A stretch of 64,000 nt of DNA from the NCBI RefSeq assembly GCF_022414595.1, contig NZ_JADWYO010000007.1:1-64000 (forward strand). Reading direction: 5' to 3'. The notes below the pieces were generated by a model. It had not been told where the DNA came from, did not search any database, and worked only from the letters and a program-made list of their open reading frames with translations. The position numbers and the translations under genes are program-made. The stretch comes from Streptomyces sp. MUM 203J. GTDB taxonomy: Bacteria > Actinomycetota > Actinomycetes > Streptomycetales > Streptomycetaceae. How positions within the stretch are numbered: position 1 is the first letter of the stretch; each line of letters begins with the position of its first letter. Below, one piece after another: positions 18,464 to 39,312 of the stretch.

Positions 18464-18538
18464 GGTGCTGGTGGTTCTCCTTCGCCAGGACCGTAACCCT
18501 GGCATCAGGGACTCCACAAATCTCAGTACAGCTCACTG

Positions 18539-18920
18539 CGGTCGCTGCCAGACAGCCTGTCGGGTTCGTGACCTGCAGTGTTGAGAAGCCACTGACGAGC
18601 GGCGCAGGAACAGTCGCGGGTCGCCGGGCCCAGAAGCAGGGTGTGGCCAGCGACCGAAGCGACTCATCCCAGTGGTCGGCGAGGAGCAGCTCCTTGGCGT
18701 AGGCGTCGAGGCTGCCTGAGCCCTGCCAGACGTTGTCCGGGCAGAAGGCGTGATGCTCGGCGGCGACGACGAGAGCGTCGGGCAGTGTGCGGGGCGGGGC
18801 CGCGGCGGACAGCTACTACGAGAACCTCGAAGCTGAAGAGGTCTTCCCATCAGGGACAGCGCCGGATCGCCGCCCTGCCGGCATCGGGCCTCCGGCTGGA
18901 GTAGCTCCGCAGGCACCGAA
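18539..18920. other. Gene-poor stretch with an unidentified decayed coding fragment
   Basis: On the minus strand, 18600-18810 can be read as DALVVAAEHHAFCPDNVWQG ... LDAYAKELLLADHWDES, which looks like a piece of a real protein but has no start, continues into noncoding frames, and is not one I recognise. Nothing else convincing is present. Confidence 0.35.
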
Positions 18921-18966
18921 GCCGAGACGAGAGCCGGGGCCTTGACCTGACGGTCTCGGCCCCGGC
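18921..18966. terminator. Terminator at the left border of the NRPS cluster
   Basis: GCCGAGAC pairs with GTCTCGGC, and the alternative GCCGGGGCC pairs with GGCCCCGGC. It lies about 40 bases beyond the carbamoyltransferase stop, so it ends the leftward biosynthetic operon. Confidence 0.65.
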
Positions 18967-19004
18967 CTCAACTCCCCCACTGGGCAACGGAGTACCTGTC
19001 ACTG

Positions 19005-20807
19005 TCAAAGCAGGGTGTAGACGCTGTCACTCACCCGGCTCCGGCGCGGTGGCCGGGTGCCCTTGAACCACGTCACCCAGGACCGCGGGAGGGCTTCGCG
19101 GTCCAGGACGAAGTCGTCGAGCACCAGGCAGTCGATATCTGACCTCAGGAAGCAGAGCAGGGCGTCGACGGGGGTGTGGACGATCGGCTCTCCCCGGAGG
19201 TTGAACGACGTGTTCAGGAGCAGCGGGCAGCCCGTCCGGTCGGCGAACGTCCGGATGAGGCGGTAGAAGCGCCCGTTCGTTCCCTCGGTGACGGTCTGCA
19301 CACGGGCTGACTTGTCCACGTGGGTGATGGCCGGCAGCGACAGCGGCGACACGACCTCGCAGGTCTCCAGCATGAACGGCGACTCGTGGTCGAGCCGGAA
19401 GTGCTCGTGCGCGTGCTCGGCCAGCACAGCGGGCGCGAACGGCCGGAACGCCTCGCGCATCTTGACCGAGGCGTTGATCCGGTCCCGTGTGTCGTCGCCC
19501 CGTGGGTCGGCCAGGATGGACCGTCCGCCGAGCGAGCGGGGCCCGAACTCCTCCCGGCCGTGGTACCAGCCGATCACCTTGCCCTCGGCCAGTCGCCCCG
19601 CGACGGCATCGAGCAGACCCGCCTCGTCCCCGCGGAAGTCCGCGAAGGACTGGCCGGCGTACGCACCGAGCAGCCGGGCGATACCGTCGGAGTGCGTGCC
19701 GGAGCCGAGGAGCACCGAGGTCAGCCGGTCCTGTCGGGGCCGCTCCCCGGTCAGGCGCTGGTGGGCCACCGCCGCGCACCCGAGGCTGCCGCCCGCGTCA
19801 CCGGCGGCCGGCTGCACGAACACCCTGGCGAAGGGGCCCTCCTCGACGATGCGGCGCACGGCGACGACATTGAGGGCCACGCCTCCGGCCATGCACAGGC
19901 TCTCGCTGCCCGACATGCGGTGGGCCTTGTCGACCATGCGCAGCAGGGTCTCCTCGGTCACGACCTGGATGCTGCGCGCGAGGTCGTGGTGGACCTTCTC
20001 GATCGCCGACTCCGGCACCCGCGGTGCCAGGCCGATCAGGGACGTGAAGCGCTCACCGAGCATGCCGTCCGGGTTGGTGAAGTCGAAGTAGTCCAGGTCG
20101 AGCCGGAACGACCCGTCCTCGGTGACATGGATCAGCCGGCCGATCTCGTCCCGGAACCGCGGTTCGCCGTAGGGGGCGAGCCCCATCACCTTGTACTCGC
20201 CCTCGTTCACCTCGAAACCGAGGTAGCCGGTGACCGCGCTGTAGAGCAGGCCCAGGGAGTGGGGGAACTCGACCTGCTCGGTCAGTTCGAGCGACGCGCC
20301 CCGCCCGACCCCCCAGCTGGTGGTGGCCCATTCGCCGACCGCGTCGACCGTCAGCACGGCGCTGTCGTCGAAGCCGGAGAAGTAGTAGGCGCTCGCGGCG
20401 TGGGAGAGGTGGTGGTCGACGAACTCGACCCGGCCCTCCCAGCCGAGCAGGTCCCGTATCTCCCTCAGCGGCCGGTCGGCGTCCAGGCGGTAGAGGGCGC
20501 TCGCGCTGCGGTCCGGGAAGGCCGGCAGCCCAGTCCACAGCTGGCGGTGGAGCTTCTTCGCCGGGTCCTCGTAATAGGCCACGCAGTCCACGTCGGTGAT
20601 GCGCAGACCGGCTTGGTCCAGGCAGTCGCGCACGGCGTCGAGCGGCAGGTCGGGATCCTGCTTGCGCCGGGTGTAGCGCTCCTCGTGGGAGGCGGCCACG
20701 AGCCGGCCGTCGATCAGCAGCGCCGCCGCCGAGTCGTGGAAGTGGGCCGAGATCCCGAGGACCACGGGTCCGGCGGGTGCCGGAGTATGCGTGTTCTGCA
20801 CGGTCAT
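19005..20807 (-). CDS. O-carbamoyltransferase (NodU/CmcH family)
   Basis: A 600-residue protein; the family uses carbamoyl phosphate and ATP to carbamoylate hydroxyl groups of natural products. The N-terminal domain opens VLGISAHFHDSAAAL and contains EERYTRRKQD and the metal-binding FVDHHLSHAASAYYFSGF (about 128-142). The C-terminal TsaC-like domain shows EEFGPRSLGGRSILADPR and LLNTSFNLRGEPIV. ATG 20807 overlaps the stop of the oxygenase gene by four bases, so the two are coupled. The longer open frame upstream is antisense noise. The oxygenase-carbamoyltransferase order suggests that a newly made hydroxyl, or the serine hydroxyl, is the acceptor; this is inference. Confidence 0.93.
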   Translation of the reverse strand: MTVQNTHTPAPAGPVVLGISAHFHDSAAALLIDGRLVAASHEERYTRRKQDPDLPLDAVRDCLDQAGLRITDVDCVAYYEDPAKKLHRQLWTGLPAFPDRSASALYRLDADRPLREIRDLLGWEGRVEFVDHHLSHAASAYYFSGFDDSAVLTVDAVGEWATTSWGVGRGASLELTEQVEFPHSLGLLYSAVTGYLGFEVNEGEYKVMGLAPYGEPRFRDEIGRLIHVTEDGSFRLDLDYFDFTNPDGMLGERFTSLIGLAPRVPESAIEKVHHDLARSIQVVTEETLLRMVDKAHRMSGSESLCMAGGVALNVVAVRRIVEEGPFARVFVQPAAGDAGGSLGCAAVAHQRLTGERPRQDRLTSVLLGSGTHSDGIARLLGAYAGQSFADFRGDEAGLLDAVAGRLAEGKVIGWYHGREEFGPRSLGGRSILADPRGDDTRDRINASVKMREAFRPFAPAVLAEHAHEHFRLDHESPFMLETCEVVSPLSLPAITHVDKSARVQTVTEGTNGRFYRLIRTFADRTGCPLLLNTSFNLRGEPIVHTPVDALLCFLRSDIDCLVLDDFVLDREALPRSWVTWFKGTRPPRRSRVSDSVYTLL

Positions 20808-21610
20808 CGCGGGTCTCCCTGTCCGGCAGTGTGCGGCTCCGCCATCGCGACCGCGATCTTCCGGTCGCCGGCGAAGGGCTCCCGGCCGTGGCTGGACAGC
20901 ATGTTGTCCACCACGAGGATGTCGTTCTGCTGCCAGTCGAAGCGGACCCGGCAGTCCGCGTAGCGGCTGCGCAGGTGGTCCATCACGTCGTCGGGGATGC
21001 GTCCGCCGTCGCCGTAGTACGCGTTCGTGGGGAGGCCGTCCTCGCCGGTCCCCTCGGGGATCAGCCCGTGCTCCTTGCAGCAGGCCTCCGCCTCGGCCCG
21101 GCTGTCGGTCCCGAACAGCTTGGCCCACGGGACGCCGAAGTCCGGGTGGTAGTTGCGCACCAGACTCCAGCGCCGGCGCGCGAACTCCTCCCGTACGCCA
21201 GGGTCGATCGCCGCGTACAGCCGCCGGGTGTCGGCCAGCGGTGTCGATCCCGGCGTCTGCGGCGCCCGCAGGCAGGAGAAGTGCAGCGTCATCGGCCAGG
21301 CGTCCGGGTAGGAGCACTCGTTGTGGAGGAAGATCTCCTCCTCGGCCGGGTGGTCGGTGGACGTGTACGCACTGCCCTGGACCGAGGTGCGCGGGGAGGA
21401 CGCCTCGGTGCAGGTGAGCGTCTCCCCGGACAGCGCGTTGACGGTCGACTGCGATCCGTCGACACCGTCGATGTCGAAGCCGCGGAAGAGGAGCGCTCCA
21501 TGGGTGCCGAGCGTCGAGCGGAGCTCGTCACGATCGTGCTCGATGGGGTCTACGAGGTCGGTGGTGGAACCTGCTTCCACCACCAGCGGCAGCACTGCCG
21601 GCGCGGGCAT
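20804..21610 (-). CDS. Fe(II)/2-oxoglutarate oxygenase, SyrP/TauD-like, shortened
   Basis: A 268-residue TauD-family enzyme. ATG 21610 is preferred over the ATG 15 bases upstream because AGGAG lies five bases before it. The iron triad is intact: His96 and Glu98 in FLHNECSY, and His241 in MLSSHGREPF; the Arg in GDRKIAVAMAEP should bind 2-oxoglutarate. The sequence pattern (SVQGSAYTSTDHPAEEEIFLHNE) is that of SyrP-like enzymes that hydroxylate carrier-bound aspartate and of the dapdiamide epoxidase DdaC. Compared with my memory of that family it lacks about 45 residues between TDSRAEAEACCKEHG and YYGDG. It probably oxidises an aminoacyl-carrier intermediate. Confidence 0.87.
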   Translation of the reverse strand: MPAPAVLPLVVEAGSTTDLVDPIEHDRDELRSTLGTHGALLFRGFDIDGVDGSQSTVNALSGETLTCTEASSPRTSVQGSAYTSTDHPAEEEIFLHNECSYPDAWPMTLHFSCLRAPQTPGSTPLADTRRLYAAIDPGVREEFARRRWSLVRNYHPDFGVPWAKLFGTDSRAEAEACCKEHGLIPEGTGEDGLPTNAYYGDGGRIPDDVMDHLRSRYADCRVRFDWQQNDILVVDNMLSSHGREPFAGDRKIAVAMAEPHTAGQGDPR

Positions 21611-21689
21611 ACGGTCTCCTGACATAACGGTGTTGCGGGCGGGCAGAGAGGTCAGACGGGCCGGTGCGGGACGTCCGGGGCGGGCGCCG

Positions 21690-23051
21690 TCACCCCGGCG
21701 GGCCCCAGGGCCTGTCCGAGAACCGATCCTCCGGACGGGCCCCGGCCGTCTGGTCCAGGAAGGGCGCGTCCGACGGCGACAGCGGCTGCAGGTCCGTCAC
21801 CCAGGTCGCCCGCGGGTCGAACCGTGCGAAGAACGGCCGCCCGACCACCTCCGGGTCCCTGGCCTGCAGATAGCGCAGTGCGAGCGCGGACTGTCCCGCG
21901 ATCTGCGTCACTCCGTCGACGACCACTTTGCCGCGGGTGGCGGACATCGACGGGCCGCGGACCGTGCGCGCGAGTCCGGTCACGGACGACAGAGCCTCCC
22001 GGTAGATCAGCCAGGCACGGACGAGCGGAACCTCGAAGTACTGGCGCGGACCGGTGTCCCGCTCCACGAACATGTAGTAGGGCACGGCATCGAGGGCGAC
22101 GGCGCGCGTCCACATCTCCCGCCAGATGTCGGCGTCGTCGTTGATCGACCTGACCAGGGGCGCCTGGGTGCGGATCACGGCGCCCGTCGACCGGACTCGT
22201 TCGACGGCGCGCCGCACGGGCTCCGGGTGAAGCTCGCGAGGATGCGTCACATGAGCCATCACCGCGAGGTGCCGACCGCTTTCGCGAACCTCCTCGAACA
22301 GGCGCAGGAGGTCGTCGGCGTCCTCGTCGGCGGTGAACCGGTACGGCCAGTAGGTCAGGGCCTTGGTGCCGATCCGGATGTTCCTGATGTGCTCCATCCC
22401 CGGGGCGAGGAAGGGCTCCAGCGCGCGCCGCAGGCTGTCGGTGCGCATGATCAGCGGGTCGCCTCCGGTCACCAGGATGTCGGTGATCTCGGTGTGGTGC
22501 CGCAGGTAGGCGGCGAGCGCGTCGGCGTCGTCCTTCTCCACGGCCATCTTCAGCTCGGGCACCCCGACGAACTGTGCCCAGCGGAAGCAGTAGGTGCAGT
22601 ACGCGTGGCAGGTCTGGCCCTGACGCGGGAAACAGAGCAGCGTCTCCTGGTACTTGTGCTGCACGCCCGAGAGCCGCTGCCCCTGCCAGACGGGGACGTT
22701 CTGGTCCGTCTGGCCCGCCGGGTGCGCGTTCAGCCCCGCGCGGATCTCCCGCACGGCGGGCGCGAGACGGGCGGGGCCCGCCTCCTCGCGCAGCAGGTCC
22801 GTCACGGTCTTCAGCTCGTCCGCGGCCAGCATGTCGGGCTGCGGAAAGACCAGCCGGAAGACGGGGTCGTCGTGCACGTCGTCCCAGTCGATGAGCTCGT
22901 CGACCACATACTGGTTGGTCCGGAACGGCAGGACCGCGGCCACGGCCCGTATCTGGAGCTTCGTCTCGGAGTCCGCCCCGCACCGGTCCAGCAGCGCGTC
23001 CAGATCGCGTGCCGAGTACGCCCGGAAGCGGGGCGCCGTCACGGCGCTCAT
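21690..23051 (-). CDS. KamA-like radical SAM aminomutase, divergent subfamily
   Basis: A 453-residue radical SAM protein. The cluster motif is C148-x3-C152-x2-C155 in TCHAYCTYCFRWAQF; VTGGDPL is the GGE-like SAM segment; SATRGKVVVDG holds a Lys where lysine 2,3-aminomutase has its PLP lysine. The region after the cluster differs from classical lysine 2,3-aminomutase and EpmB, which carry CxxCxRR, so the substrate may differ. Known relatives move an alpha-amino group to the beta position. Its start overlaps the NRPS stop by four bases, tying it to the cluster: it may supply a beta-amino acid monomer (beta-Glu, beta-Lys or other). Exact chemistry is open. Confidence 0.82.
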   Translation of the reverse strand: MSAVTAPRFRAYSARDLDALLDRCGADSETKLQIRAVAAVLPFRTNQYVVDELIDWDDVHDDPVFRLVFPQPDMLAADELKTVTDLLREEAGPARLAPAVREIRAGLNAHPAGQTDQNVPVWQGQRLSGVQHKYQETLLCFPRQGQTCHAYCTYCFRWAQFVGVPELKMAVEKDDADALAAYLRHHTEITDILVTGGDPLIMRTDSLRRALEPFLAPGMEHIRNIRIGTKALTYWPYRFTADEDADDLLRLFEEVRESGRHLAVMAHVTHPRELHPEPVRRAVERVRSTGAVIRTQAPLVRSINDDADIWREMWTRAVALDAVPYYMFVERDTGPRQYFEVPLVRAWLIYREALSSVTGLARTVRGPSMSATRGKVVVDGVTQIAGQSALALRYLQARDPEVVGRPFFARFDPRATWVTDLQPLSPSDAPFLDQTAGARPEDRFSDRPWGPPG

Positions 23052-26000
23052 CCGCGCCCCTCGTTCTGGCCAGCGGTGCCCGGCGCGACCGCGCGGGCGA
23101 TCTCCCTGGCCGTGACCGCGGCATGGGACCGCTGCACCAGGGTGAAGTGGTCGGCGCCGGGCACGGTCCGGGTCTCAACCGGCGTACCCAGTGCCTCCTC
23201 CCAGCCGAGGGCCGGGGATGTCCCCTCCGGCCGCGTCTGGTCACCGGCGAGCACCAGCGTGAGCCGGGTGTCCCTGAGGCGGGCCCGCCGCATCCGGTAG
23301 TCCACGAGCGCGGTGGCGTTGGTGTCGAACACTGTGAACCTGCGGCGCAGTGACTCCTGCTCCTCGCCGGCCGTCGGCCGGTCACCGCTGAGCAGCGCGG
23401 TGTCGATCCCCTCGCCGGTCATGCGCTCCAGATCGCGAGCGAAGGACTCCACCCGGTCGGCGTCGGGGCCTGCGAAGTGCTCGAATGCCCTCGAGCCCGG
23501 CGCGTAGCTGTCCAGCAGCACCAGGGAGGCGGTGCGCACCCCCTCGAAGGAGAGCTGGCGTGCCATCTCGTAGGCGACGGCGCCTCCCATTGACCAGCCG
23601 GCGAAGTGGTACGGCCCCTCAGGCTGCACCTTGAGCACCTCGTGGAGGTAGGCGGCCGCCATCTCCTGGACCGAGGTGAACACGGTGCCGCCGTCAAGGC
23701 CGGGAGAGCGGACCCCGATCACCGTGAACTCGGCGGGCAGCGCCGACGCCACCTCCCGGAAGCACAGCACGTCGCCGCCGATCGGGTGCACGAGGAACAA
23801 CCGTGCTCCCTTCGGTGAACCCTGCCGTAAAGTCAGCAACAGCTCGCTCGCCTGGTCGTCGGACTCCTCCCGCAACTGGCGTACCGACGCGGCCAGACGG
23901 TCGACGCGCGGCCCCTCCAGGAGCTTGCGCAGCGAAAGCGACAGGCCGGTCTTCTTCCGGATCCGGGTGAGCAGGATGGTGGCGAGCAGTGAGTGCCCGC
24001 CGACCGCGAAGAAGTCATCGGTGACGCCGAAGTCCTCGTGACCGAGGAGCTCGGCCCACATGGACGTGATCAGGGTCTCGGTGTCGTCCCGGGGCGCGAC
24101 ACGCTCCTGCAGGGCCGGGAACGAGGTGCCCCGGAGCGAGGACCGGTCAAGCTTGCCGTTGGGCAGCAGGGCGAACCGGTCGACGAAGAGGAACAATGAG
24201 GGGACGACGGCCAGCGGCAGCCGCTCGCGCGCGTGGCGGCGAAGTTCCTCCGTGGTCAGGGCGGAGCCGGCGGAGCGCACGACGTAGGCGACGAGCGAGC
24301 CGTCCGCCTCCTTGTCCGCCTCCACGTGGACCTGGCGCACCTGCGGATGGGTGGTCAGCTCGGCCGCAACCTCCGCGGGGTGCACCCGGACGCCGCGCAC
24401 CTTGAGCAGGTCGTCGCTGCGCCCCTCGACGTGGATCTCGCCGAAGGCGCCGACCACGGCGAGGTCTCCCGTGTGATAGACGAGGTCGTCCGGGTCTTCC
24501 GACAGCGGGTTGGGACGGAAGTTCGAGGCTGCGCGGGCGTCGTCGAGGTAGCCCAGGGTCCGGTACGGCGTCCGGATGACGATCTCGCCGCGTTCGCCGG
24601 GACCGCGGACGGAGCCGTCCGCGCCCAGGACGACCGCCTGGGCGGCGGGCAGCGGCCGGCCGACGGGCACCGGTCCCGCGTCCTGCTCGGCCGTCACCCG
24701 GTGGAACGTCTTGATCATGGTCGTCTCGGTGGGCCCGTAGAAGTTGACGACTTCCGTGTCCGGGCCCAGCAGCCGCTCACGCAGCTCCTGGACGAGACGG
24801 CCGGTGAGGGGCTCGCCCGCGAGGCAGAGCAGCCGCAGGTCGGTGAGAGGCGTGTTGGCCCGGTCGGTGTCCCGCATCCAGGAAGCCACCACGCTGGGTG
24901 TCGTGTGGACGATGGTGACGCGCTCGCGCGCCAGCCAGTCCACCATCCGCGCCGTGTCGTCCAGGGCGCTCGTCGGCGGCAGGCACAGAGTGGCCCCCTG
25001 GGTGAGCGGCACGAAGACGTCGCGCAGGACTGCGTCGAAGGAGAGCGTGGTCAGCTGTGCCACGCGGTCCCCGGCGTGCACGCCGAACTCCGCCGCCTCC
25101 CAGTCGATGAAGTGGTCGAGGCCGCGGTGCGACCCGACGACCGCCTTGGCCTCGCCGGTCGTGCCGGAAGTGAAGAAGACGTAAGCCGGTTCCATGGGCC
25201 GGGCGGGGACGGGGCCGAGCGCCTCGCCCTCGCTCTTGGCAAGTTCCTCGAAGGAGAGGCGTCGCACGGTGGTGTCGCCCGGCACCTCGGTCGCGGTCGA
25301 CGGCTCGGTGAGCAGAATCTGCCGGATGCCGGCCCTGGCCACCATGGCGGCGCGCCGTGGTTCGGGAAGACCGTCGTCCAGGAGTACGGCGGTGGCGCCG
25401 ACGCCGACCGCGGCGACGAGGGCGGCCACGGTGGCGGGCGACTTGCCGCCCAGCACACCGACGCGCTGCCCCGCCTGAAGCTCCTGCGCGGCGGCCGCCA
25501 CCGCGGCGGCCAGCTGCCGATAGGTCACCTCGCCTTCCGCCCAGGAGACCGCGACGGCGTCCGGGGTGGCGGCGGCCCGGCGCCTGAACCGCTCGGCGAC
25601 GGGGACGAGGTCCCGCGTGGGAAGCGGCTCGGCGAACGGGTGGTCGGCGCGGTGTTCAAAGGCCAGCGGACGCGTCGGCTGCTCGGCGGCGAAGCGGAGC
25701 AGGCGCGTGAACCGCTCGCCGAGCGCGGCCGCGAACTCGGCCTGGACCGTGTCGGCGTCGTACTCGAAGTCCAGGACGGTGCCGGCCTCTCCGGGGCGCA
25801 CCACCACGGTGAGGTCGAACTTGGCCGTCGGCGCCGTGCCGGAGCCGTCACCGGCTTCGGCGACCACGTCGACGGGACGCAGGAGGGCGGCCTCGGGCGG
25901 CAGTTCCCCGCGCGGTGGCATCCGCAGCATCACGGAGAACAGCGGGCTGCGGTCCCCGTCCCGGGCGGCGGCGACGGCCTCAACGACCTGCGCGTAGGAG

Positions 26001-28849
26001 ACGTCCCGGTGCCCCGATGCCTCGACGAGCGTCGACTTGACCCGGCCGAGTGCCTCTTCGAACGTCGGGGTGCCCGCCATGTCGAAGCGATAGGCGTGCG
26101 TCCGGACGAAGAACCCGATGACGTCCTCGAACTCCTCGCGGTCCCGGCCCACGCTGTCGCTGCCGATGACGACCCGGTCCTGCGCCGCCGCCCGGGACAG
26201 GGCGTAGGCCAGGACGGTCATCATCGCCATGTACTCGGTGGCCCCGGACCTCGCGCACAGCTCGGCGAGGCGATCTGTCACCTCGCGGGCGACCGGAACC
26301 CGCAGCACCCGTGCCTGGTGCGGCCGTTCGCCTCGCACGGGACGTCCCCACGGCACGTCCGGGTCGGGGGTGCCGGCGAGCAGGTCGCGCCAGTAGGCCA
26401 GGTCGGCCTCTTCGCGCCCGCCAGTCGTCCGGCGCGCACGCCAGGCCACGTAGTCGCCGAACTGGAGCCGGGAGGTGTCGCCGTCCAGGTGCGTGTGCCG
26501 GTCGGTGCCGGCGAGCACCTCGTCGACCTGCTGCGCGATGAGACTCCACGACACACCGTCACAGCACAGGTGATGGACGGTCAGGCCGACGAGGAGCTCA
26601 TCGTCCCCGACCCGGACCGTCCGGACCCGTACCAGCGGGCCGGCGACCAGGTCGAAGGCGGCGGCCGCCGCGTTCGACAGCGCGGCCAGGCCCGACGGCC
26701 TGTCGGCCACGGCCGAAAGGGCGGTGAAGTCGACGGCGGCCTCGCCCACGGACTGCACGGGGCGCCCGTCGACCTCGCGGAAGCGCAGTCGCAGCGCCTC
26801 GTGACGACGGCACACCGTGAGGAAGGCCGTGCGTACGGCCTCCTCGTCCAGGCCGGTGGGCAGCCGGAACACACCGGCCATGTTGTAGGCGGAGCCGTGG
26901 AGGTCCAGCTGCTGGAGGAACCAGAGGCCCTCCTGCTCGGGCGAGAGCGGCTGGTCGGCCTCGCGCGCGACGGGCACGGGCGCCGGTTCCTCCTCGGCCT
27001 GGGGGCCCTCCCGCAGCGCTCTGTCCACGGCCTGAGCGAGCGTGGCTATCGTCGCCGAGCGGTACAGGGTCGGCAGATTCAGGTCGGCCTCGAACGTCCG
27101 GCGGATCCTGGCAAGGAGCCGGGCCAGCATCAGCGAGTGGCCGCCCAGATCGAAGAAGTCGGCGTGCCGGGAGGTGATCTCCTTCTTGAACGCCTCGGAC
27201 CACAGCTCGGCGACGCGCCGCTCCGTCGCGGTCCACTCGCCCTCGTCCGCCGCCTCCTCCGGCTGCTGCTCCGCCGTGTCGTCGGGGTCGGGGAGCGCGG
27301 ACCGGTCCAGCTTGCCGTGGCCGGTGAGCGGCAGTCGCTCCAGGAGGACCACCCGGGCCGGGACCATCGCATTGGAGCCGGCCGCGGCCACGTGCCGCCG
27401 TACGGCGGAGGCGTCCACGCCCGCGCCCTGGGCCGGCACGACGTAGGCGACGAGCGCGGGGCCGTCGTCCCCGGCGCGGACCACGACGGCCGCGTCCTCG
27501 ACCTCCGGCATGCGGGTGATCACCGCGCCGACCTCAGCCGGGTGGACGCGGACGCCGAGGACCTTGACCTGGTCGTCCACCCGGCCGTGGATCTCCAGGT
27601 CGCCCCGGGGGCCGATGCGGCCCAGGTCGCCGGTCCGCTGCACGAGGTCGGTGGGGTCGTCGGGGTTGAGCGGGTTCACCTGGAAGAGCGGGGCCTCTCC
27701 CACGGCCGGGCGCCAGGTGCCCCGGGTGAGGTGCGGGGTGCGGATCAGCACGTGACCGGGTTCACCGACGCCGCACCGCCGGCCGCGCTTGTTGACCACG
27801 AGCAGTTCGGCGCCGTCGATGCCCTTGCCCACGGGCAGGATGCCCGCAGGGACCTCGCCGTCCGGAACGGGGTACCAGGACTTGAGGATGGTGGCCTCGG
27901 TCGTTCCGTAGAGGTTGACGAACCGCGTGCCCGCGTCGCCGGTCGCATTCCGCCAGCGGTTGACGAGGCTGCCCGCGAGCGGCTCGCCGGAGAGACAGAT
28001 CAGACGCAGTGCCGGGAAGCCCGTACCTGCGGGCTGCTCGGCCAGCAGCGTGGACAGCACGCTCGGCACCGTCTGGAGGACCGTCACCTCGTCCTCGCGC
28101 AGCCAAGCGAGTACCCGTGCCACATCGACGAAGGGCCGGTCGGTCGGCGGGAGGCACACGGTGGCGCCTCCGATGAGCGCCGGGAACAGGTCCTTGAACA
28201 CCGCGTCGAAGGTGAGCGCGGCCATCTGGGCGACGCGGTCGCCCGGGCCGATGGCGAGGGCCTGCTGTTCCCACGCGCAGAAGTGGGCGAGCGCCCCGTG
28301 CCAGCCCAGGACACCGCGGGGCTCGCCGGTGGTGCCGGAGGTGAAGCACACGTACGCGTCCGCGGAGGCGGCCACGACGGGCAGCTGCACGTCCCCCGCC
28401 GTCGGCTGCTCCAGCTCGGCGAGCCGGACCACCGGCGGGGAGCCGGCGCCCGGCTCCCACGTTTCGTCGGTCGTGTCGACGAGCAGCGACGGGCGCGCCC
28501 GTTCCAGCACGTCACGCACCCGGCCCTCCGGCTGGGTGACGTCGATCATCACCAGGATCGCGCCGGCCCGCAGGACACCGAGCATGGCCACGACGGTCTC
28601 CGGCGACCGGCCGCCACGGACCGCCACCACGTCCCCGGGGGTCACCTCCCGCGTCCGCAATGCCCGAGCCGTCGCGGAGAACCGCTCCACGAGCTCCTGG
28701 TACGTGTGGGACCGAGTGCCTCGGACCAGTGCGACGGCGTGCGGGAGCCGGGAGGCCGTGGCCTCCATCAGGGCGGGGACGGTGGTGCTCTCGACCAGGT
28801 GCCGTGACGGCGTCGTCGACGTGGTGGGACGGTCGTCGGCGTACGTCAT
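23048..28849 (-). CDS. NRPS, A-T-C-A-T-TE (1933 aa)
   Basis: Domain order by residue: A (about 15-540; TSGTTGEPRG, NLYGTTEATIL, RTGDLG, GHGKLDR), T (Ser in LGGHSL about 571), C (about 640-1070; intact HHLCCDG about 758), A (about 1080-1590; TSGTTGEAKA, NFYGPTETTMI, HTGDLA, NGKLDR), T (VGGHSL about 1620), TE (GWSMGG about 1751, His in ADHFTLV about 1900). By manual alignment to EntF and GrsA the ten-residue codes are about DAKQCSLILK and DARHCAFMIK. The Lys or Arg at position 239 suggests acidic substrates. The two A domains resemble each other more than the A domain of the partner NRPS. There is one in-frame TTA, at codon 1674. It is the downstream partner of the A-T-C protein and ends in release by hydrolysis or cyclisation. 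Confidence 0.92.
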   Translation of the reverse strand: MTYADDRPTTSTTPSRHLVESTTVPALMEATASRLPHAVALVRGTRSHTYQELVERFSATARALRTREVTPGDVVAVRGGRSPETVVAMLGVLRAGAILVMIDVTQPEGRVRDVLERARPSLLVDTTDETWEPGAGSPPVVRLAELEQPTAGDVQLPVVAASADAYVCFTSGTTGEPRGVLGWHGALAHFCAWEQQALAIGPGDRVAQMAALTFDAVFKDLFPALIGGATVCLPPTDRPFVDVARVLAWLREDEVTVLQTVPSVLSTLLAEQPAGTGFPALRLICLSGEPLAGSLVNRWRNATGDAGTRFVNLYGTTEATILKSWYPVPDGEVPAGILPVGKGIDGAELLVVNKRGRRCGVGEPGHVLIRTPHLTRGTWRPAVGEAPLFQVNPLNPDDPTDLVQRTGDLGRIGPRGDLEIHGRVDDQVKVLGVRVHPAEVGAVITRMPEVEDAAVVVRAGDDGPALVAYVVPAQGAGVDASAVRRHVAAAGSNAMVPARVVLLERLPLTGHGKLDRSALPDPDDTAEQQPEEAADEGEWTATERRVAELWSEAFKKEITSRHADFFDLGGHSLMLARLLARIRRTFEADLNLPTLYRSATIATLAQAVDRALREGPQAEEEPAPVPVAREADQPLSPEQEGLWFLQQLDLHGSAYNMAGVFRLPTGLDEEAVRTAFLTVCRRHEALRLRFREVDGRPVQSVGEAAVDFTALSAVADRPSGLAALSNAAAAAFDLVAGPLVRVRTVRVGDDELLVGLTVHHLCCDGVSWSLIAQQVDEVLAGTDRHTHLDGDTSRLQFGDYVAWRARRTTGGREEADLAYWRDLLAGTPDPDVPWGRPVRGERPHQARVLRVPVAREVTDRLAELCARSGATEYMAMMTVLAYALSRAAAQDRVVIGSDSVGRDREEFEDVIGFFVRTHAYRFDMAGTPTFEEALGRVKSTLVEASGHRDVSYAQVVEAVAAARDGDRSPLFSVMLRMPPRGELPPEAALLRPVDVVAEAGDGSGTAPTAKFDLTVVVRPGEAGTVLDFEYDADTVQAEFAAALGERFTRLLRFAAEQPTRPLAFEHRADHPFAEPLPTRDLVPVAERFRRRAAATPDAVAVSWAEGEVTYRQLAAAVAAAAQELQAGQRVGVLGGKSPATVAALVAAVGVGATAVLLDDGLPEPRRAAMVARAGIRQILLTEPSTATEVPGDTTVRRLSFEELAKSEGEALGPVPARPMEPAYVFFTSGTTGEAKAVVGSHRGLDHFIDWEAAEFGVHAGDRVAQLTTLSFDAVLRDVFVPLTQGATLCLPPTSALDDTARMVDWLARERVTIVHTTPSVVASWMRDTDRANTPLTDLRLLCLAGEPLTGRLVQELRERLLGPDTEVVNFYGPTETTMIKTFHRVTAEQDAGPVPVGRPLPAAQAVVLGADGSVRGPGERGEIVIRTPYRTLGYLDDARAASNFRPNPLSEDPDDLVYHTGDLAVVGAFGEIHVEGRSDDLLKVRGVRVHPAEVAAELTTHPQVRQVHVEADKEADGSLVAYVVRSAGSALTTEELRRHARERLPLAVVPSLFLFVDRFALLPNGKLDRSSLRGTSFPALQERVAPRDDTETLITSMWAELLGHEDFGVTDDFFAVGGHSLLATILLTRIRKKTGLSLSLRKLLEGPRVDRLAASVRQLREESDDQASELLLTLRQGSPKGARLFLVHPIGGDVLCFREVASALPAEFTVIGVRSPGLDGGTVFTSVQEMAAAYLHEVLKVQPEGPYHFAGWSMGGAVAYEMARQLSFEGVRTASLVLLDSYAPGSRAFEHFAGPDADRVESFARDLERMTGEGIDTALLSGDRPTAGEEQESLRRRFTVFDTNATALVDYRMRRARLRDTRLTLVLAGDQTRPEGTSPALGWEEALGTPVETRTVPGADHFTLVQRSHAAVTAREIARAVAPGTAGQNEGRG

Positions 28850-28895: not shown

Positions 28896-31800
28896 TCAGA
28901 GGGCTATCTCGTCGACGTAGGCGTCGGGCTTGTCCACCGCGGCCTCGACGAAGGAGGCGAGCTGGCGGGCCATGAGCGCGGCGCGCTCGCTCGAGATACG
29001 GCCCCGGGCGTACACGAGGCGTGCCTCGTAGCCCTCGGTGAGCGGGAAGACCTCGAACTTGAGGTCGTAGTGCGTGTGCCGGGGCGGGAACTGGTGGACC
29101 CGCACGGTGACGCCGTCGGCCTGCCGTTGCCACGCCGGCATGTTCTGGAAGACGAACAGGTTCTGGAAGAGGGGCAGCCGGTCGGTGCCCCGGGCTGCTC
29201 CGACCTCAGCGACGATGCGCTCGATGGGCACCACCGAGTGCCGCTGGCCCGCCACGACGCTGGTCCGGGCGCGGTCCAGCACCTGGGCGACTGTCGCGTC
29301 CTCGTCGATCTCCAGACGCTGCGGGACAGTCGTGACGAAGTGGCCGGCCAGGTCGGCGACCCAGGGCGGCGTCCGGTTCGCCATGGGAGTGCCGACGACC
29401 ACGGTCTCCTGGCCGGAGAGCCGGGCCAGCCATACCGTGTAGCCGGCGAGCAGGGCCATGAACTCGGTGATGCCGTGCTCGCGGCACAGGCGCTTCAACC
29501 GGGCCGGGAAGTCCGGCGACCAGCGCAGCGCGACGCTGTCGGCGGGCACGCTGAGGGAGGGGCCGCGCGGCTCGTCCACCGGCAGGTCGAGCCCGTCCGG
29601 CGCGTTCGCCAGTACGGTGCGCCAGTGCCGCAGCGACTCCTGGACGGCGGCCCGGTGCTCCCGGAGGGTCTCGTGCGTGCGCTGCCACGCCGCGTGGTCG
29701 ACGATCTGCAACCGTGCGTCCTCGGGCCCGCGGTCCGGTTCGGTCAGCAGTCGGATCAGCTCATCGGTCAGCAGCGACCAGGTCCATCCGTCCGCGATGA
29801 TCTGGTGGGTGACCATCACGAGCAGGTGGTCGTTCGGGCCTAAGGTGACTCCGTGGGCCCGCAGCGGTGGTCCGGCGGCGAGGTCGAACGGCTCGTACGC
29901 CGTCTGCGCCACCAGTCGGCGCACGGCCGCGGGATCCGCGGACAGACCGGTCCCGTCCGTCCACTCCAGGGCCGGGAGCTGTGCGCCGACGACGGCCCGC
30001 GGCTCACCGTCCACGGAGCGGAACGTCGTCCGCAGCACCTCGTGCCGCCGTACCAGACCGGCGAAAGCCTCCGACACCCGCTCGGCGCTCACCCCGGTGA
30101 TCCGTAACGCGGTGGGGGCGCTCATCGCGGTGCTTTCGGGCTCCAACTCCTGTAGGAACCAAAGGCGTTCCTGGTAGCGGTTGAGCGGCAGCTCATCACT
30201 GCGCGGTACTCGCGACGGCATCTTCGTCGTGTCCGTGCCTGCGGCGGAGAGCAGAGCGCGCAGCCGGTCGAGGGTCGGTTCCGCGAAGAAGTCGGCCAGG
30301 GCGACGGTGCCGCCGAACTCCTCGGCGACGTCGGCGAGCAGCCGCACGGCGTGCAGCGACGTGCCGCCCGCGTGCAGGAAGTGCGGCTCGGTGGAACCGA
30401 GCACGCCGGCCCACAGGCGTTCCAGTGGGTCGGCGCCGTCGGCGGCCTGCGTGCTCCGGTCGGACCGCTCCTCGATGATCGCGTGCAGTGCCGCCACGTC
30501 GGCCTTGCCGTGCGCGGTCTTCGGCAGGGAGTCCACGGGTGCGAGGCCGGCCGGTATCGAGCCGGCCGGCAGGATGCCCAGCAGGTCATCACGCCATCCG
30601 GACCACGGCACGCCGGGGACCAGGACGGCGACGGCGTTCAAGCGTGCGACGCCGGCCCCGTCGACACGCGTCACCACGACGCACTCCTCCACGTAGGGCA
30701 GCGACTGCAGGGCGGCTTCCACCTCGCCCAGTTCGATACGGACGCCGCCGATCTTCACCTGGCGGTCGTTGCGGCCGTGGTAGAGGTACGCCCCGTCCGG
30801 ACGCCGACTGGCCAGGTCGCCTGTACGGTACATACGGCGGGTCGGGTCGGCCGGGTGGGGCACGAAACGCTCGGCTGTGACCTCGGGCAGGTTGAGGTAG
30901 CCACGAGCGACGCCCACGCCGGCGATGCACAGCTCACCGGCCTCGCCCGCCGGCACCTGGGCGCCGTCCTCGCCGACGACGAGCAGTTCGATGCCGGTGA
31001 TGGGGTGGCCGATGGGGACCGGTGCGGTGGGCGAGGCGTTCTCGGCGCACTGCCAGTGGGTGACGTCGACGGCGGCCTCGGTGGGGCCGTAGAGGTTGTG
31101 GAGTTCGGTGTGGGGCAGCCGCTCGAAGAACCGCCGGGCGAGGTCTGGGCCGAGCGCCTCGCCGCTCACCATGACCGAGCGCAGCCGCGGGCAGTCCCCG
31201 GGCCGCACCTGGCGCAGAAACTCCGTGAGCATGCTCGGTACGAAGTGCGTGACGGTCACCTGGCGCTCAGTCAGGAACTGTGCCAGGTAGCCGGGGTCCC
31301 GGTGCCCGTCGGGCGTGGCGAAGGCCAGTTCCGCTCCGGTCATCAGGGGCCAGATGAACTCCCACACCGAGACGTCGAAGGTGTACGGCGTCTTCTGCGC
31401 GACCACGTCCCCAGGCCCGATGCCGAAGCGGTCCTGCATCCACCGCAGGCGGTTGACGATGGCGGCATGCTCGGTCATCACGCCCTTGGGGCGGCCTGTG
31501 GAGCCAGACGTGTAGATGACGTAGGCGAGGTGGTGCGGCGCGGCGGAGTCGATCGGCGGCGCCTGGCCGGGCGTCCGGTGACTGCGGGGCGTCAGACGCG
31601 GCACTCCGCTGCCGGCGAGTGACCACAGCCGGGACGACTCCTCGGTCACGACGGCTGCAGGCGCGGCGTCCCGCAGCATACCGAGGATCCGCCGGTCCGG
31701 GTCGGTGGTGGACAGCGGCAGCCAGGCCCCGCCCGCCCGCACGACCCCGACGATCGCCACGGCCAGGTCGACCGAGCGCTCCAGCTGGAGCGCCACGATC

Positions 31801-31973
31801 CGATCGGGCCCTACGCCCGCCGCCACGAGTGTCTCGGCCAATGCGGCCGAGCGGGCATCGAGTTCGCGGTACGTCAGGGCCTGCCGGTCGTCAGAGACCG
31901 CACGCGCGTCGGGTGTCCGGCGGAACTGCTCGACCAGCGCCGCACCCAACGACTCCGGAACGGTACGACACAC
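28896..31973 (-). CDS. NRPS, A-T-C, serine-activating loading module
   Basis: A 1025-residue protein from GTG 31973 (GAGGGGG eight bases upstream; the open frame beyond it is noncoding). A domain about 10-510 with YTSGSTGRPKG, FDVSVWEF, NLYGPTEAAVD, RTGDLA; its pocket reads DVWHMSLVDK, a standard serine code. T domain FLHAGGTSL (Ser about 540). The C domain begins LNRYQERLWFLQEL; its active-site motif is HQIIADG (about 722), with Gln in place of the catalytic second His. The absence of an N-terminal C domain marks it as the chain starter, so the line is Ser-A2-A3. Two TTA codons occur (codons 623 and 711). It is transcribed first in the leftward operon. Confidence 0.92.
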   Translation of the reverse strand: MCRTVPESLGAALVEQFRRTPDARAVSDDRQALTYRELDARSAALAETLVAAGVGPDRIVALQLERSVDLAVAIVGVVRAGGAWLPLSTTDPDRRILGMLRDAAPAAVVTEESSRLWSLAGSGVPRLTPRSHRTPGQAPPIDSAAPHHLAYVIYTSGSTGRPKGVMTEHAAIVNRLRWMQDRFGIGPGDVVAQKTPYTFDVSVWEFIWPLMTGAELAFATPDGHRDPGYLAQFLTERQVTVTHFVPSMLTEFLRQVRPGDCPRLRSVMVSGEALGPDLARRFFERLPHTELHNLYGPTEAAVDVTHWQCAENASPTAPVPIGHPITGIELLVVGEDGAQVPAGEAGELCIAGVGVARGYLNLPEVTAERFVPHPADPTRRMYRTGDLASRRPDGAYLYHGRNDRQVKIGGVRIELGEVEAALQSLPYVEECVVVTRVDGAGVARLNAVAVLVPGVPWSGWRDDLLGILPAGSIPAGLAPVDSLPKTAHGKADVAALHAIIEERSDRSTQAADGADPLERLWAGVLGSTEPHFLHAGGTSLHAVRLLADVAEEFGGTVALADFFAEPTLDRLRALLSAAGTDTTKMPSRVPRSDELPLNRYQERLWFLQELEPESTAMSAPTALRITGVSAERVSEAFAGLVRRHEVLRTTFRSVDGEPRAVVGAQLPALEWTDGTGLSADPAAVRRLVAQTAYEPFDLAAGPPLRAHGVTLGPNDHLLVMVTHQIIADGWTWSLLTDELIRLLTEPDRGPEDARLQIVDHAAWQRTHETLREHRAAVQESLRHWRTVLANAPDGLDLPVDEPRGPSLSVPADSVALRWSPDFPARLKRLCREHGITEFMALLAGYTVWLARLSGQETVVVGTPMANRTPPWVADLAGHFVTTVPQRLEIDEDATVAQVLDRARTSVVAGQRHSVVPIERIVAEVGAARGTDRLPLFQNLFVFQNMPAWQRQADGVTVRVHQFPPRHTHYDLKFEVFPLTEGYEARLVYARGRISSERAALMARQLASFVEAAVDKPDAYVDEIAL

Positions 31974-32217
31974 CGTGTTGTCCCCCTCATAAGTACCCTG
32001 TCGGCGGGCCGACCAAGATCGCCCCGGCCATACACGACACGGAACCATGGCACGTCAGAGGCCGTTTAGGTAGATCTATATTTGGTCAATGAATCTTTCC
32101 TTGTGTTGATCAACTGGTGATGTAATCTGCCTCAGTCCCGCCCGGGCGGCAGCCTGCCGCACCAGGGCGGATGTTGACGTAGAGCCGTACCAATCAACTC
32201 TGGGAAGGGTGTTGACG
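31974..32217. promoter_or_regulatory. Divergent promoter region of the NRPS cluster
   Basis: This 244-base space separates the two operons. Its middle (32062-32120) is unusually A/T-rich for this genome and includes the palindrome GTTGATCAAC (32105-32114). On the minus strand TTGACC near 32085 is a possible -35 element, but no convincing -10 at standard spacing was found. It is the only likely place for a regulator to control both operons. No regulator gene lies in the cluster. Confidence 0.55.
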
Positions 32218-34089
32218 GTGTGTGGACTCGCGGGCTTCGTCGGGCCACGACATGATCTCCGGGCGGCGCGCGAGACGCTCGACGCCATGAGCGCGGTCAT
32301 CGGACACCGAGGACCGGACTCCACCGGATTCCATGTCGACGAGACCGTGGCGTTCGCGTTCACACGGCTGGCGATCAACGACCTCGGAGCCGGCGACCAG
32401 CCGATGTACGACGAGAGCCGGCAGATCGTCGCCATGACCACCGGCGAGATCTACAACTACCGCGAACTGCGTGACCTCCTCGTCGACCGGGGTCACACCC
32501 TGCGCACGCGCTGCGACACCGAGGTGATCCCGCACCTCTACGAGGAGTTCGGCCGCGACTTCGTCAGTCGGCTCGACGGGCAGTTCGCGGTCGTGCTCTA
32601 CGACCACCGTGAGCAGCTCTTCATCGGCGCCCGCGACCACTTCGGCGTCACGCCGCTGTTCTACGCACACCAGGGCGGCGAGTTGGTCTTCGGCTCCGAG
32701 ATCAAGGCCGTGCTGGAGCACCCCGCGGTGCCGCGCCGCGTCGACCTCGTCGGCCTGGACCAGGTGTTCACCCTGCCCGGTCTGGTGAGCCCGCGGACGA
32801 TGTTCGAGGGCGTCCACAGCGTGCCGCCCGGCACCGCTGTCGAGTTCCGCCCCGGTGACCGGCCCAAGGCCTGGACGTACTGGGACCTCGCATACCCGCG
32901 CACCGACGCCGACTTCGAACGCCACGACGAGTCGTACTACGTCCGCCGGGTCGAGGACCTGCTGGTCCGTTCGGTCGAGAAGCGTCTGCAGTCCGACGTG
33001 GAGGTCGGCCTCTACCTGAGCGGCGGCCTGGACTCCTCCCTGGTCGGCGCGATCATGCGGCATCTGATGCCGGAGGCCGAGATCCAGTCGTTTGCGGCGG
33101 CCTTCCCCGAGCGGGAGCTCTCCGAGAGTGACTACCAGCGGTGGATGAGCGGTGTCCTCGACACCCGCCACACCGAGCGCTTCGTGCACGGCGAGGAGAT
33201 AACCTCCCGGCTGCGCACAGTCGTACGGCACACCGAGTGCCCGCTGAAGGAGTCGTTCAACTCGGCCGCCCACGCGCTGTCCGAAGCCGTGCACCGCGCC
33301 GGGGTCAAGGTGGTGCTCACCGGACAGGGCGCGGACGAGCTGTTCGGCGGCTACATCGGCTACCGCTTCGACCAGGTCCGGCGCGCACAGGCCGCGGGCG
33401 GCGTCACCGACCTGCGGGAGGCCAGGATTCGCGAAGGCCTCTGGGGGGACGAGAACTTCTTCTACGAACGCAACGACGCCGGATTCAGGGCCACGAAGGC
33501 CCGGCTCTACTCGGCGCCGGTGCGCGAGCGGCAGGACGAGATCGACTGCCTCGGTCACCCTTTGGTCGACCGCGAGCGCCTGACCGGCCTGCACGATCTG
33601 CACCGCCGTTCCTACCTCGACCTCAAACTCCGGCTGGCGGACCATCTGCTCGGCGACCACGGCGACCGCATGGTGTTCGCCAACTCGGTGGAGTCCCGCC
33701 ATCCGTTCCTCGACCGGGAGCTCGTCGAGTTCCTCGCGACCGTGCCGCCCGAGCTGAAGCTGAAGGGTCTTGAGGAGAAGTACCTCCTCAAGCAGGTCGC
33801 CCGGGACTGGATTCCGCGCCGGATCGTGGACCGCGAGAAGTTCGGCTTCACCGCGCCGGGCAGCCCGCACCTGATCCGGCAGGACGACCCCGCCATCGAG
33901 GCCCTGCTGTCCCGCGAACGCATCGAGGCGGACGGCTACTTCGATCCGGACCACGTGGAGCGGCTCGTCCGCGAGTACGGCACGCCCGGGTTCCGCATCA
34001 ACGTTCCCTTCGAGACCGACCTGTTGATGACCGTACTCACCTTCAACCTCCTCCTCGACCTTTACGACCTGCCCGCATACTCCGCCTGA
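32218..34089 (+). CDS. asnB: Glutamine-hydrolysing asparagine synthetase-type amidotransferase
   Basis: A 623-residue protein. GTG 32218 is the right start because it places Cys directly after the initiator (CGLAGFVG), giving the N-terminal nucleophile of class II glutaminases; GAAGGG lies eight bases upstream, and starting nine bases earlier would bury this Cys. The synthetase half has YLSGGLDSSLVG (about 266-277) for ATP-pyrophosphate chemistry, then TGQGADELFGGY and VESRHPFLDRELVEF. It is the first gene of the rightward operon. In this setting it probably converts a carboxylate of a free or peptide-bound Asp/Glu-like residue to an amide rather than serving general asparagine supply. Beta-lactam synthetase is less likely because the glutaminase Cys is kept. 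Confidence 0.9.
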   Translation: MCGLAGFVGPRHDLRAARETLDAMSAVIGHRGPDSTGFHVDETVAFAFTRLAINDLGAGDQPMYDESRQIVAMTTGEIYNYRELRDLLVDRGHTLRTRCDTEVIPHLYEEFGRDFVSRLDGQFAVVLYDHREQLFIGARDHFGVTPLFYAHQGGELVFGSEIKAVLEHPAVPRRVDLVGLDQVFTLPGLVSPRTMFEGVHSVPPGTAVEFRPGDRPKAWTYWDLAYPRTDADFERHDESYYVRRVEDLLVRSVEKRLQSDVEVGLYLSGGLDSSLVGAIMRHLMPEAEIQSFAAAFPERELSESDYQRWMSGVLDTRHTERFVHGEEITSRLRTVVRHTECPLKESFNSAAHALSEAVHRAGVKVVLTGQGADELFGGYIGYRFDQVRRAQAAGGVTDLREARIREGLWGDENFFYERNDAGFRATKARLYSAPVRERQDEIDCLGHPLVDRERLTGLHDLHRRSYLDLKLRLADHLLGDHGDRMVFANSVESRHPFLDRELVEFLATVPPELKLKGLEEKYLLKQVARDWIPRRIVDREKFGFTAPGSPHLIRQDDPAIEALLSRERIEADGYFDPDHVERLVREYGTPGFRINVPFETDLLMTVLTFNLLLDLYDLPAYSA

Positions 34090-34150
34090 CGGCGATTCAG
34101 GCGCGCGTCGGGCAGCCCTGCCCGGACCCACATTGCCAAGGGGACAACGG

Positions 34151-36205: not shown

Positions 36206-37291
36206 TTGCGCTTCAGCGTCATGTTCTTCGCCTCCGGTGAGGCGGCCCCGCGGGAGACCTGCCGGACGGTGCTGGAGACCAGCCGTCTGGCCGACGTACA
36301 CGGCCTGGACGCGGTGTGGACTCCCGAACGGCACTTCGACCAGTTCGGCAGTGTGTTCCCCAACCCCGCGCTCACCAGCGCCGCGCTGGCCACCGCGACC
36401 GAACACATCCAGCTGCGGGCCGGCAGCCTCATCTCTCCGCTGCACCACACGGTGCGCATCGCCGAGGACTGGTCCGTCGTCGACAACTGGTCGTCCGGCC
36501 GTGCGGCAGTCTCCTTCGGCTCCGGCTGGAACGCCAACGACTTCGTGCTGGCCCCCGAGGCCTACGAGTCGCGGCACCAGGTGATGCTGGAGCAGATCGA
36601 CACGGTGCGCGCCCTGTGGCGAGGCGAGGACGTCGAGCTTCCCAACGGCACCGGGCAGCCCTTCGCGGCACGCCTGCACCCCAGGCCCGTCCAGCCGGAA
36701 CTGCCGATCTGGATCACCTCGTCGGGGAACCCGCGGACCTTCCAGGACGCCGGGGTCCGCGGCCTCAACGTGCTGACCCACCTGATCGGCCAGAACCTGG
36801 ACCAGCTCGCCGAGAAAGTGGCCCTCTACCGCAAGGCCCGCGCGGACGCCGGCTTCGATCCGGCCACCGGGACGGTCTCCCTGATGCTGCACACCCACCT
36901 GGACGACGACCCGGAGGCCGCCGAGGCCCGCAGCCGCGCACCGTTCCGCGACTATCTGCGCTCCGCGGTGAAGCTGGAGCTCCGGGCCGCTCAGGGCGGC
37001 GGCACCATCAGCGGCGGGCATGTCCTGCCCGACGACGAGATACCCGAGGACCTCCTCGACGAGTTGCTGGACGCGACCTACGAGCGTTATCTGCAGGGCG
37101 GCTCCCTGATCGGCTCCCCGGACACCTGCCGGGGCATGGCCGACCGGGTGGCGGCGGCGGGTGTCGACGACATCGCATGTCTGCTGGACTTCGGCGTGCC
37201 CAGCGAGCGGATCCCCGCGGTGATCCCGCTGATCGCCGCCCTCGCCGGCGAGAGCGGCTCCGGACGTGAGGTCGTCGAGAGTGCGCACTGA
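36206..37291 (+). CDS. Luciferase-like flavin-dependent monooxygenase (natural-product type)
   Basis: A 361-residue LLM enzyme, full length. The opening MRFSVMFFASGEA, then GLDAVWTPERHFDQFG, ISPLHHTVRIAEDWSVVDN and SFGSGWNANDFVLAPE are the signature of the subfamily often found fused inside NRPS/PKS proteins (MupA/Atu3640 type). Here it stands alone. Family members use reduced flavin to hydroxylate chain intermediates. It follows the SGNH gene by about 40 bases and overlaps the MFS gene, so it belongs to the rightward operon. It is a second oxidative step besides the Fe/2OG enzyme; its substrate is not predictable from sequence. Confidence 0.9.
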   Translation: MRFSVMFFASGEAAPRETCRTVLETSRLADVHGLDAVWTPERHFDQFGSVFPNPALTSAALATATEHIQLRAGSLISPLHHTVRIAEDWSVVDNWSSGRAAVSFGSGWNANDFVLAPEAYESRHQVMLEQIDTVRALWRGEDVELPNGTGQPFAARLHPRPVQPELPIWITSSGNPRTFQDAGVRGLNVLTHLIGQNLDQLAEKVALYRKARADAGFDPATGTVSLMLHTHLDDDPEAAEARSRAPFRDYLRSAVKLELRAAQGGGTISGGHVLPDDEIPEDLLDELLDATYERYLQGGSLIGSPDTCRGMADRVAAAGVDDIACLLDFGVPSERIPAVIPLIAALAGESGSGREVVESAH

Positions 37292-39310: not shown

Positions 39311-39312
39311 CC

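Follow-up and report, generated by a model that had tools for sequence, protein, structure and literature searches.

A predicted glutamate 2,3-aminomutase encoded beside a non-ribosomal peptide synthetase in Streptomyces sp. MUM 203J

In Streptomyces sp. MUM 203J, contig NZ_JADWYO010000007.1 begins with a stretch of 64,000 nucleotides (the window) in which a KamA-fold radical S-adenosylmethionine (SAM) protein is encoded directly behind a non-ribosomal peptide synthetase (NRPS). We favor the reading, at a probability of roughly 0.55, that this protein (window KamA) is a radical SAM enzyme dependent on pyridoxal 5'-phosphate (PLP), a glutamate 2,3-aminomutase that supplies undecarboxylated beta-glutamate to a Ser-X-X tripeptide synthetase. 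It is probably a conserved member of a known, biochemically unproven kind of enzyme, put to a new use but not catalyzing a new reaction.

Results

The KamA gene and its fold

The gene overlaps the end of the preceding synthetase gene, NRPS2:

21690..23051, minus strand: KamA-fold radical SAM/PLP protein, predicted glutamate 2,3-aminomutase, 453 amino acids (aa), ATG start
23048..23051, minus strand: ATGA shared by the stop of NRPS2 and the start of KamA

The ATG of kamA (23051-23049) shares bases with the TGA of NRPS2 (23050-23048), and GAGGGG lies immediately upstream. This overlap makes translational coupling likely, and the coupling to the NRPS stop proposed in an earlier sequence-only reading of this DNA is upheld. 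The predicted fold has a mean pLDDT of 87.6. It matches lysine 2,3-aminomutase (KAM; 2a5h), the closest solved structure, with Z 30.9 and a root-mean-square deviation of 3.3 over 326 residues, against Z 13.3 for the runner-up; the Foldseek/VIA match lists contain KAM and general radical SAM folds only. Window kamA is under purifying selection, with a ratio of nonsynonymous to synonymous substitution rates (dN/dS) of 0.16-0.30 against five orthologues. Taken with the fold match, this indicates that the protein is not a product of chance.

Active site

In KAM, R134 is taken to bind the alpha-carboxylate and K337 the PLP, with the side-chain ammonium contacted by D293 and D330 (numbering checked by counting on the 2a5h chain). 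The corresponding positions in window KamA are:

22569..22610, minus strand: [4Fe-4S] motif CHAYCTYCFRWAQF, residues 148-161, with R157 at KAM R134
21927..21929, minus strand: Lys375, at the PLP lysine K337 of KAM in the panel alignment
22059..22061, minus strand: Arg331, at KAM Asp293; Arg in 129 of 129 family rows
21948..21950, minus strand: Ser368, at KAM Asp330, offset -7 from the PLP Lys

The KAM counterpart of CHAYCTYCFRWAQF is CSMYCRHCTRRRF, in which C125/C129/C132 and R134 were verified by counting on the printed chain. Besides the common fold, window KamA shares with KAM (2a5h; TIGR03820) the CxxxCxxC motif and the equivalents of R134 and K337; it differs by the replacement of D293 and D330 and by one extra residue after CFR. 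Family residue counts refer to 129 rows, from which L077, L078 and L079, loci departing from the family signature, were left out. C148/C152/C155, R157 and K375 are invariant in all of them, K375 being the PLP-type lysine that the sequence-only reading had recognized, and TGGDP (195-199) is the counterpart of the KAM GGD. That reading had also described the enzyme as divergent and its cluster motif as lacking the CxRR pattern of KAM and EpmB. Both descriptions stand in part: the second and third Arg of the KAM CTRRR are gone but the first (R134, here R157) is retained, and the motif at residues 148-161 is not peculiar to this gene but the signature of a family present in many phyla.

The R331/D293 pairing is free of gaps in two profile alignments. 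For D330, the mapping relies on its spacing to the PLP lysine together with a single MAFFT panel, the hidden Markov model (HMM) and hhalign alignments stopping short of D330; position 368 is Ser in 92 family rows, Val in 32 and another residue in five. The inverted charge at the side-chain site (D293 to R331) argues against lysine or arginine and for a substrate with an acidic side chain. With both Asp residues replaced, the substrate probably differs from lysine, as had been suspected. In the panel (rows L246 and L249 left out of the counts), Asp293 is kept in annotated KAMs from Ilyobacter and B. velezensis, two arginine aminomutases, EpmB, an unannotated Fusobacterium KAM-like protein, a Paracoccus AblA-like protein and five streptomycete KAM-type proteins. 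It is also kept in an S. globosus plasmid enzyme outside the window family; the gene of this enzyme adjoins vioD, and its cluster, which we read as streptothricin-type, also contains vioC and a carbamoyltransferase gene. Arg at this position was found outside the query family only in L079 and a Rhizobium protein.

The clostridial glutamate 2,3-aminomutase (TIGR04368) has the reaction that is predicted for window KamA and belongs to a separate lineage; its D293/D330 pair is reportedly also replaced (Lys332/Asn369). The arginine 2,3-aminomutase of the BlsG type (TIGR04468) shares the KamA chemistry and, unlike window KamA, keeps Asp at 293. Four Pseudomonas loci (L130, L136, L143, L157) have a BlsG-type KamA in one run with a family KamA. 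The operon-like run in L130 (Pseudomonas sp. Leaf48; 978-11287) consists of ATP-grasp, amidotransferase, arginine 2,3-aminomutase, TauD, MATE, Asp/Arg hydroxylase, aminotransferase and family KamA genes; its arginine 2,3-aminomutase, the only copy of the four that was scored, reaches 629 bits against a cut-off of 600.

Family distribution and model scores

Family members occur in 67 of 391 genomes of the order, window included (E 1e-30). A protein-query scan of 84,980 species genomes kept 80 of 123 confirmed loci, at 50-92% identity. By record title, they belong to Actinomycetota, Gamma- and Betaproteobacteria, Planctomycetota, Chloroflexi, Acidobacteria, Myxococcales, Bacteroidetes, Gemmatimonadetes, Spirochaetaceae and others. 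The signature CH-[AS]-[YF]-C-[TGS]-[YF]-CFRW-[AP]-QF has few variants. Two Streptomyces homologues (L077, L078; 41-44%) retain the CxxxCxxC spacing, but neither the FVERDTG motif nor the PLP lysine remains in them; they are possibly repurposed or decaying copies.

Window KamA scores 123.9 bits against a curated 199.2 for TIGR00238 (KamA family), a score that seven other family members scanned also fail to reach. It likewise falls short of TIGR03820 (KAM; 96.1 versus 525.4 bits), in line with the change of Asp293/Asp330 to R331/S368, of TIGR04468 (arginine 2,3-aminomutase; 81 versus 600) and of TIGR03821 (EpmB; 89.7 versus 369.3), its neighborhood being NRPS and not efp/epm. The earlier view of a KamA-like protein far from both KAM and EpmB is thereby confirmed.

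Since all curated KamA models stay below cut-off, the PGAP name lysine 2,3-aminomutase is untrustworthy here. If that name were right, window KamA would make beta-lysine, a common actinobacterial NRPS monomer, and KAM is indeed the closest solved structure. We regard this as quite improbable in view of the TIGR03820 score and the replacement of both lysine-binding Asp residues. The streptothricin-type enzyme of S. globosus, with Asp293 kept, lies outside the family, and the adenylation pockets described below, with Lys or Arg at position 239, are ill-suited to a cationic residue.

Other settings of the family were observed. In L084, L085, L089, L098 and related actinobacterial loci, a short-chain dehydrogenase gene and one resembling asparagine synthase accompany KamA in a conserved arrangement, to which L084 adds arginyl-tRNA synthetase-like and PlsX-like genes. 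In L037 (S. cellulosae NBC 01701 plasmid; 1-13338), NRPS, type III polyketide synthase (PKS) and enoyl-CoA hydratase-like genes, a dihydroxyphenylglycine-like set, precede KamA.

Adenylation codes of the coupled synthetase

The minus-strand gene order is NRPS1, NRPS2, kamA, a TauD-family dioxygenase and an O-carbamoyltransferase. Six genomes, among them the window and S. naganishii, have these neighbors around a KamA of at least 92% identity, and KamA adjoins NRPS2 in all six copies. The synthetases consist of adenylation (A), peptidyl carrier protein (PCP), condensation (C) and thioesterase (TE) domains:

28896..32048, minus strand: NRPS1, A-PCP-C, A code DVWHMSLVD
23048..28849, minus strand: NRPS2, A-PCP-C-A-PCP-TE
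27290..28789, minus strand: NRPS2 A1 domain, code DAKQCSLIL, Lys at position 239
24260..25624, minus strand: NRPS2 A2 domain, code DARHCAFMI, Arg at position 239

By the usual code table, DVWHMSLVD presumably specifies Ser, so that the first domain would be a Ser domain both in the window and in Streptomyces sp. NBC_01431. Lys or Arg occupies position 239 in two of three A domains of the window, two of three of NBC_01431, the single domain of Rhodococcus locus L035 and one of two complete domains of Mycetohabitans locus L032. All four loci have KamA without a decarboxylase-like gene. The same residues appear in none of 16 domains from 11 loci with such a gene, and in one of 60 background domains, a set of high-scoring domains and not a random draw. 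The link between Lys/Arg239 and partner-less KamA loci is a partial one.

L035 (Rhodococcus sp. DK176 pDK3; 7023-21991) also encodes an N-hydroxylase, a cupin, a tRNA-ligase-like enzyme, a MupA-type monooxygenase, a saccharopine dehydrogenase-like enzyme and ATP-grasp ligases, a set that resembles hydrazine-forming ones. A negamycin-like product is a lead for this locus; it would need beta-lysine, which the Lys239 code and R331 do not favor.

A second KamA for the same synthetase type

The NBC_01431 cluster, smaller than that of the window and homologous to it, contains an amidotransferase (68% identical to that of the window), ATP-grasp, NRPS1, NRPS2 and KamA. Its A2 code is identical to that of the window, and its A1 code is DARHCALIL versus DAKQCSLIL. 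Its KamA is 79% identical to that of L066 and falls in a five-member set (bootstrap/SH-aLRT 98/96), three of which are paired with a decarboxylase-like enzyme, apart from window KamA. A tree forcing the window and NBC_01431 enzymes together was rejected by the approximately unbiased test (p-AU 8e-8, an optimistic value because the group was named after the first tree). Different family branches thus serve the same synthetase type, which argues that they share a product. Nested in a decarboxylase-paired clade, NBC_01431 KamA would carry out the same step as window KamA, a step supplied twice. The A1-type domain was found in seven of 383 genomes (at most four candidates scored per genome), and in each of the seven a family KamA is encoded some 4 kb from it on the same contig. 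The monomer supply suggested by the sequence-only reading is therefore well supported.

The difference between the A1 codes could also mean that window KamA is a 2,3-aminomutase for some other non-cationic amino acid (aspartate, glutamine, 2-aminoadipate or similar), with the beta-product passed to the NRPS. The PLP/SAM chemistry and alpha-carboxylate residues are all kept, and S368, where the macrolactam-type clade has Val, could reflect a shifted substrate. We nevertheless consider this unlikely, as the nesting of NBC_01431 KamA in the clade paired with a beta-glutamate decarboxylase-like gene favors glutamate.

Macrolactam-type loci

At 17 actinobacterial loci, NBC_00334 included, an IdnL3-like PLP enzyme of the class I aminotransferase fold is encoded 9-669 nt from the family KamA. 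These partners are 50-70% identical to the NBC_00334 enzyme, and 16 lie on the same strand as KamA. The NBC_00334 locus, a complete macrolactam cluster of the beta-amino-acid type, further encodes type I PKSs, a proline iminopeptidase-family hydrolase, an acyl carrier protein (ACP) S-malonyltransferase, a stand-alone carrier protein and two AMP-binding enzymes. The best PDB relative of one is 5jjq (619 bits), which we take to be IdnL1; those of the other are 8k4r (647 bits) and 6akd (611 bits), the latter presumably IdnL7.

Published background comes from PMC11284099, PMC6631532, PMC9230918, PMC5785472 and PMC10662134. In these papers, the gene set seen in NBC_00334 is the one described for macrolactams with beta-amino acid starters (PMC11284099), and the IdnL4/IdnL3-type pair is assigned the conversion of L-Glu via beta-Glu to 3-aminobutyrate. 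For pretilactam, plmJ (419 aa, PLP aminotransferase) adjoins plmK (450 aa), whose product has the database name L-lysine 2,3-aminomutase and is called glutamate 2,3-aminomutase by the authors. A review lists the same pair in salinilactam, micromonolactam, lobosamide, pretilactam, silvalactam and mirilactam producers. IdnL4 was characterized through gene disruption and feeding, not in vitro.

The window-type family most likely contains IdnL4 (incednine) and PlmK, a likeness drawn from gene neighborhood and not from direct sequence comparison: both are about 450 aa long and have as neighbors a PLP enzyme of the aminotransferase fold and adenylation enzymes of the IdnL1/VinM type. In those systems the product is decarboxylated to a 3-aminobutyrate polyketide starter, whereas the window has no decarboxylase partner and an NRPS, not a PKS. 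The sequence-only reading had considered a reaction unlike that of known aminomutases; none is required, IdnL4 and PlmK having already been proposed in print as glutamate 2,3-aminomutases. Clear orthology to a characterized aminomutase, named there as the finding that would overturn it, is half established, with IdnL4 disruption and feeding on one side and, on the other, no in vitro activity and an orthology by neighborhood only.

The failure to observe the expected IdnL4 activity in vitro, and a large family whose general role is not known, would fit a KamA-derived protein that performs other radical chemistry (epimerization, dehydration or a carrier-bound amino shift) or is catalytically dead. 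This is very improbable for window KamA: the conservation of the PLP lysine and the carboxylate Arg in every family row suggests that a free amino acid is bound as aldimine, and both purifying selection and the adjacency to NRPS2 in every cluster copy speak against it.

Whether position 368 is Ser or Val does not simply mark the presence of a decarboxylase-like partner: L048 has Ser with a partner, L035 and L045 Val without one. A streptothricin/viomycin-type beta-lysine pathway was rejected for L063, L071 and L074, which combine a carbamoyltransferase with KamA: the gene after KamA is IdnL3-like, the A enzyme is 58-59% identical to the IdnL1-like enzyme of NBC_00334, and S. globosus KAM belongs to a different branch. 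No PKS was seen in the 20 kb of most carbamoyltransferase and KamA loci, a ketosynthase (KS) search matching only L059, L128 and L173, and these loci are therefore not called macrolactam clusters.

Remaining genes of the cluster

20804..21625, minus strand: TauD/SyrP-like dioxygenase
19005..20789, minus strand: O-carbamoyltransferase (Carbam_trans_N/C), start codon uncertain
32209..34089, plus strand: asparagine synthase-like amidotransferase, divergent arm
34133..36166, plus strand: 677-aa protein, no Pfam match; motifs resembling those of SGNH/GDSL hydrolases recognized by eye only
36206..37291, plus strand: luciferase-like monooxygenase, 51% identical to a Rhodococcus pDK3 protein annotated MupA/Atu3671-family
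37266..38540, plus strand: major facilitator superfamily (MFS) transporter
39178..40605, plus strand: ATP-grasp ligase with LAL_C2 domain, start uncertain

Compared with five orthologues, the window dioxygenase is missing 49 internal residues, a gap edged by a GEDG repeat. Its dN/dS against orthologues is 0.49-1.39, versus 0.23-0.33 in three comparisons among other copies. Judging from sequence, this strain's copy is probably inactive, in contrast to the conserved KamA and NRPSs. The divergent amidotransferase arm is present in four of the five other cluster copies and was not called within the 20 kb fetched for L044. Beyond the carbamoyltransferase end, two overlapping open reading frames (17271-18517, minus strand) look by eye like an IS3-type transposase pair.

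Discussion

The substrate, product, loading and step order that we infer from the observed sequence, fold, residues, coupling, conservation and neighborhoods would be as follows. In the enzyme at rest, Lys375 would hold PLP. The [4Fe-4S] cluster would cleave SAM to a 5'-deoxyadenosyl radical, and this radical would abstract hydrogen from the beta carbon of glutamate in its aldimine with PLP. A shift of the amino group from C2 onto C3 would follow, by way of the azacyclopropylcarbinyl radical described for KAM, and beta-glutamate would be released. R157 would bind the alpha-carboxylate like KAM R134, and R331 and S368 the side-chain carboxylate, where Asp293 and Asp330 of KAM bind the lysine ammonium. 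Beta-glutamate would stay undecarboxylated and be loaded by the Lys/Arg239 domains of NRPS2 after serine on NRPS1. The thioesterase would release a Ser-X-X tripeptide, which may be tailored by the amidotransferase, the monooxygenase and the O-carbamoyltransferase, the dioxygenase probably being broken here.

Several observations weigh against glutamate as the substrate and beta-glutamate as the monomer. The curated model for glutamate 2,3-aminomutase, TIGR04368, gives 75.6 bits against a cut-off of 650, and PGAP names family members lysine 2,3-aminomutase. R331 could have a structural role, and at position 368 the macrolactam-type clade almost always has Val where window KamA has Ser. The IdnL3-like partner gene has no match in the window (E 1e-12), which implies a pathway logic different from that of macrolactam-type clusters. 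L037, L066 and L138, in which the partner is absent, have no Lys/Arg239 in their six domains, and the background comparison carries the bias of its high-scoring set. That a basic residue at 239 suits a substrate with a free carboxylate, as in Glu codes, is general background and not a result of this analysis. Membership of IdnL4 and PlmK in the family is based on gene order and length in the NBC_00334 cluster, not on their sequences. In PMC11284099, the expected activity of IdnL4 is given as not observed in vitro.

A broader proposal, tentative and somewhat less probable than not when taken as a whole, is that the family marked by CH-x-YC-x-YCFRW, FVERDTG and RGPxMSxxPGK is a second lineage of glutamate 2,3-aminomutases, separate from the first, in which a change at one position (Asp293 to Arg) altered how the charge of the substrate is read. 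In this proposal the family is mislabelled as lysine 2,3-aminomutase, feeds beta-glutamate to the window NRPS, and came to serve this type of synthetase through two or more recruitments, with Lys/Arg239 codes marking the use of beta-glutamate itself by NRPSs. Among the literature matches listed, represented by partial texts, such an aminomutase in an NRPS setting without decarboxylase was not found described.

The active site contradicts the product name lysine 2,3-aminomutase borne by this large family. The window cluster offers a coupled, conserved relative, together with adenylation domains, for testing the question of IdnL4 activity. If the Lys/Arg239 codes do read beta-glutamate, they would provide a new adenylation code for genome mining.
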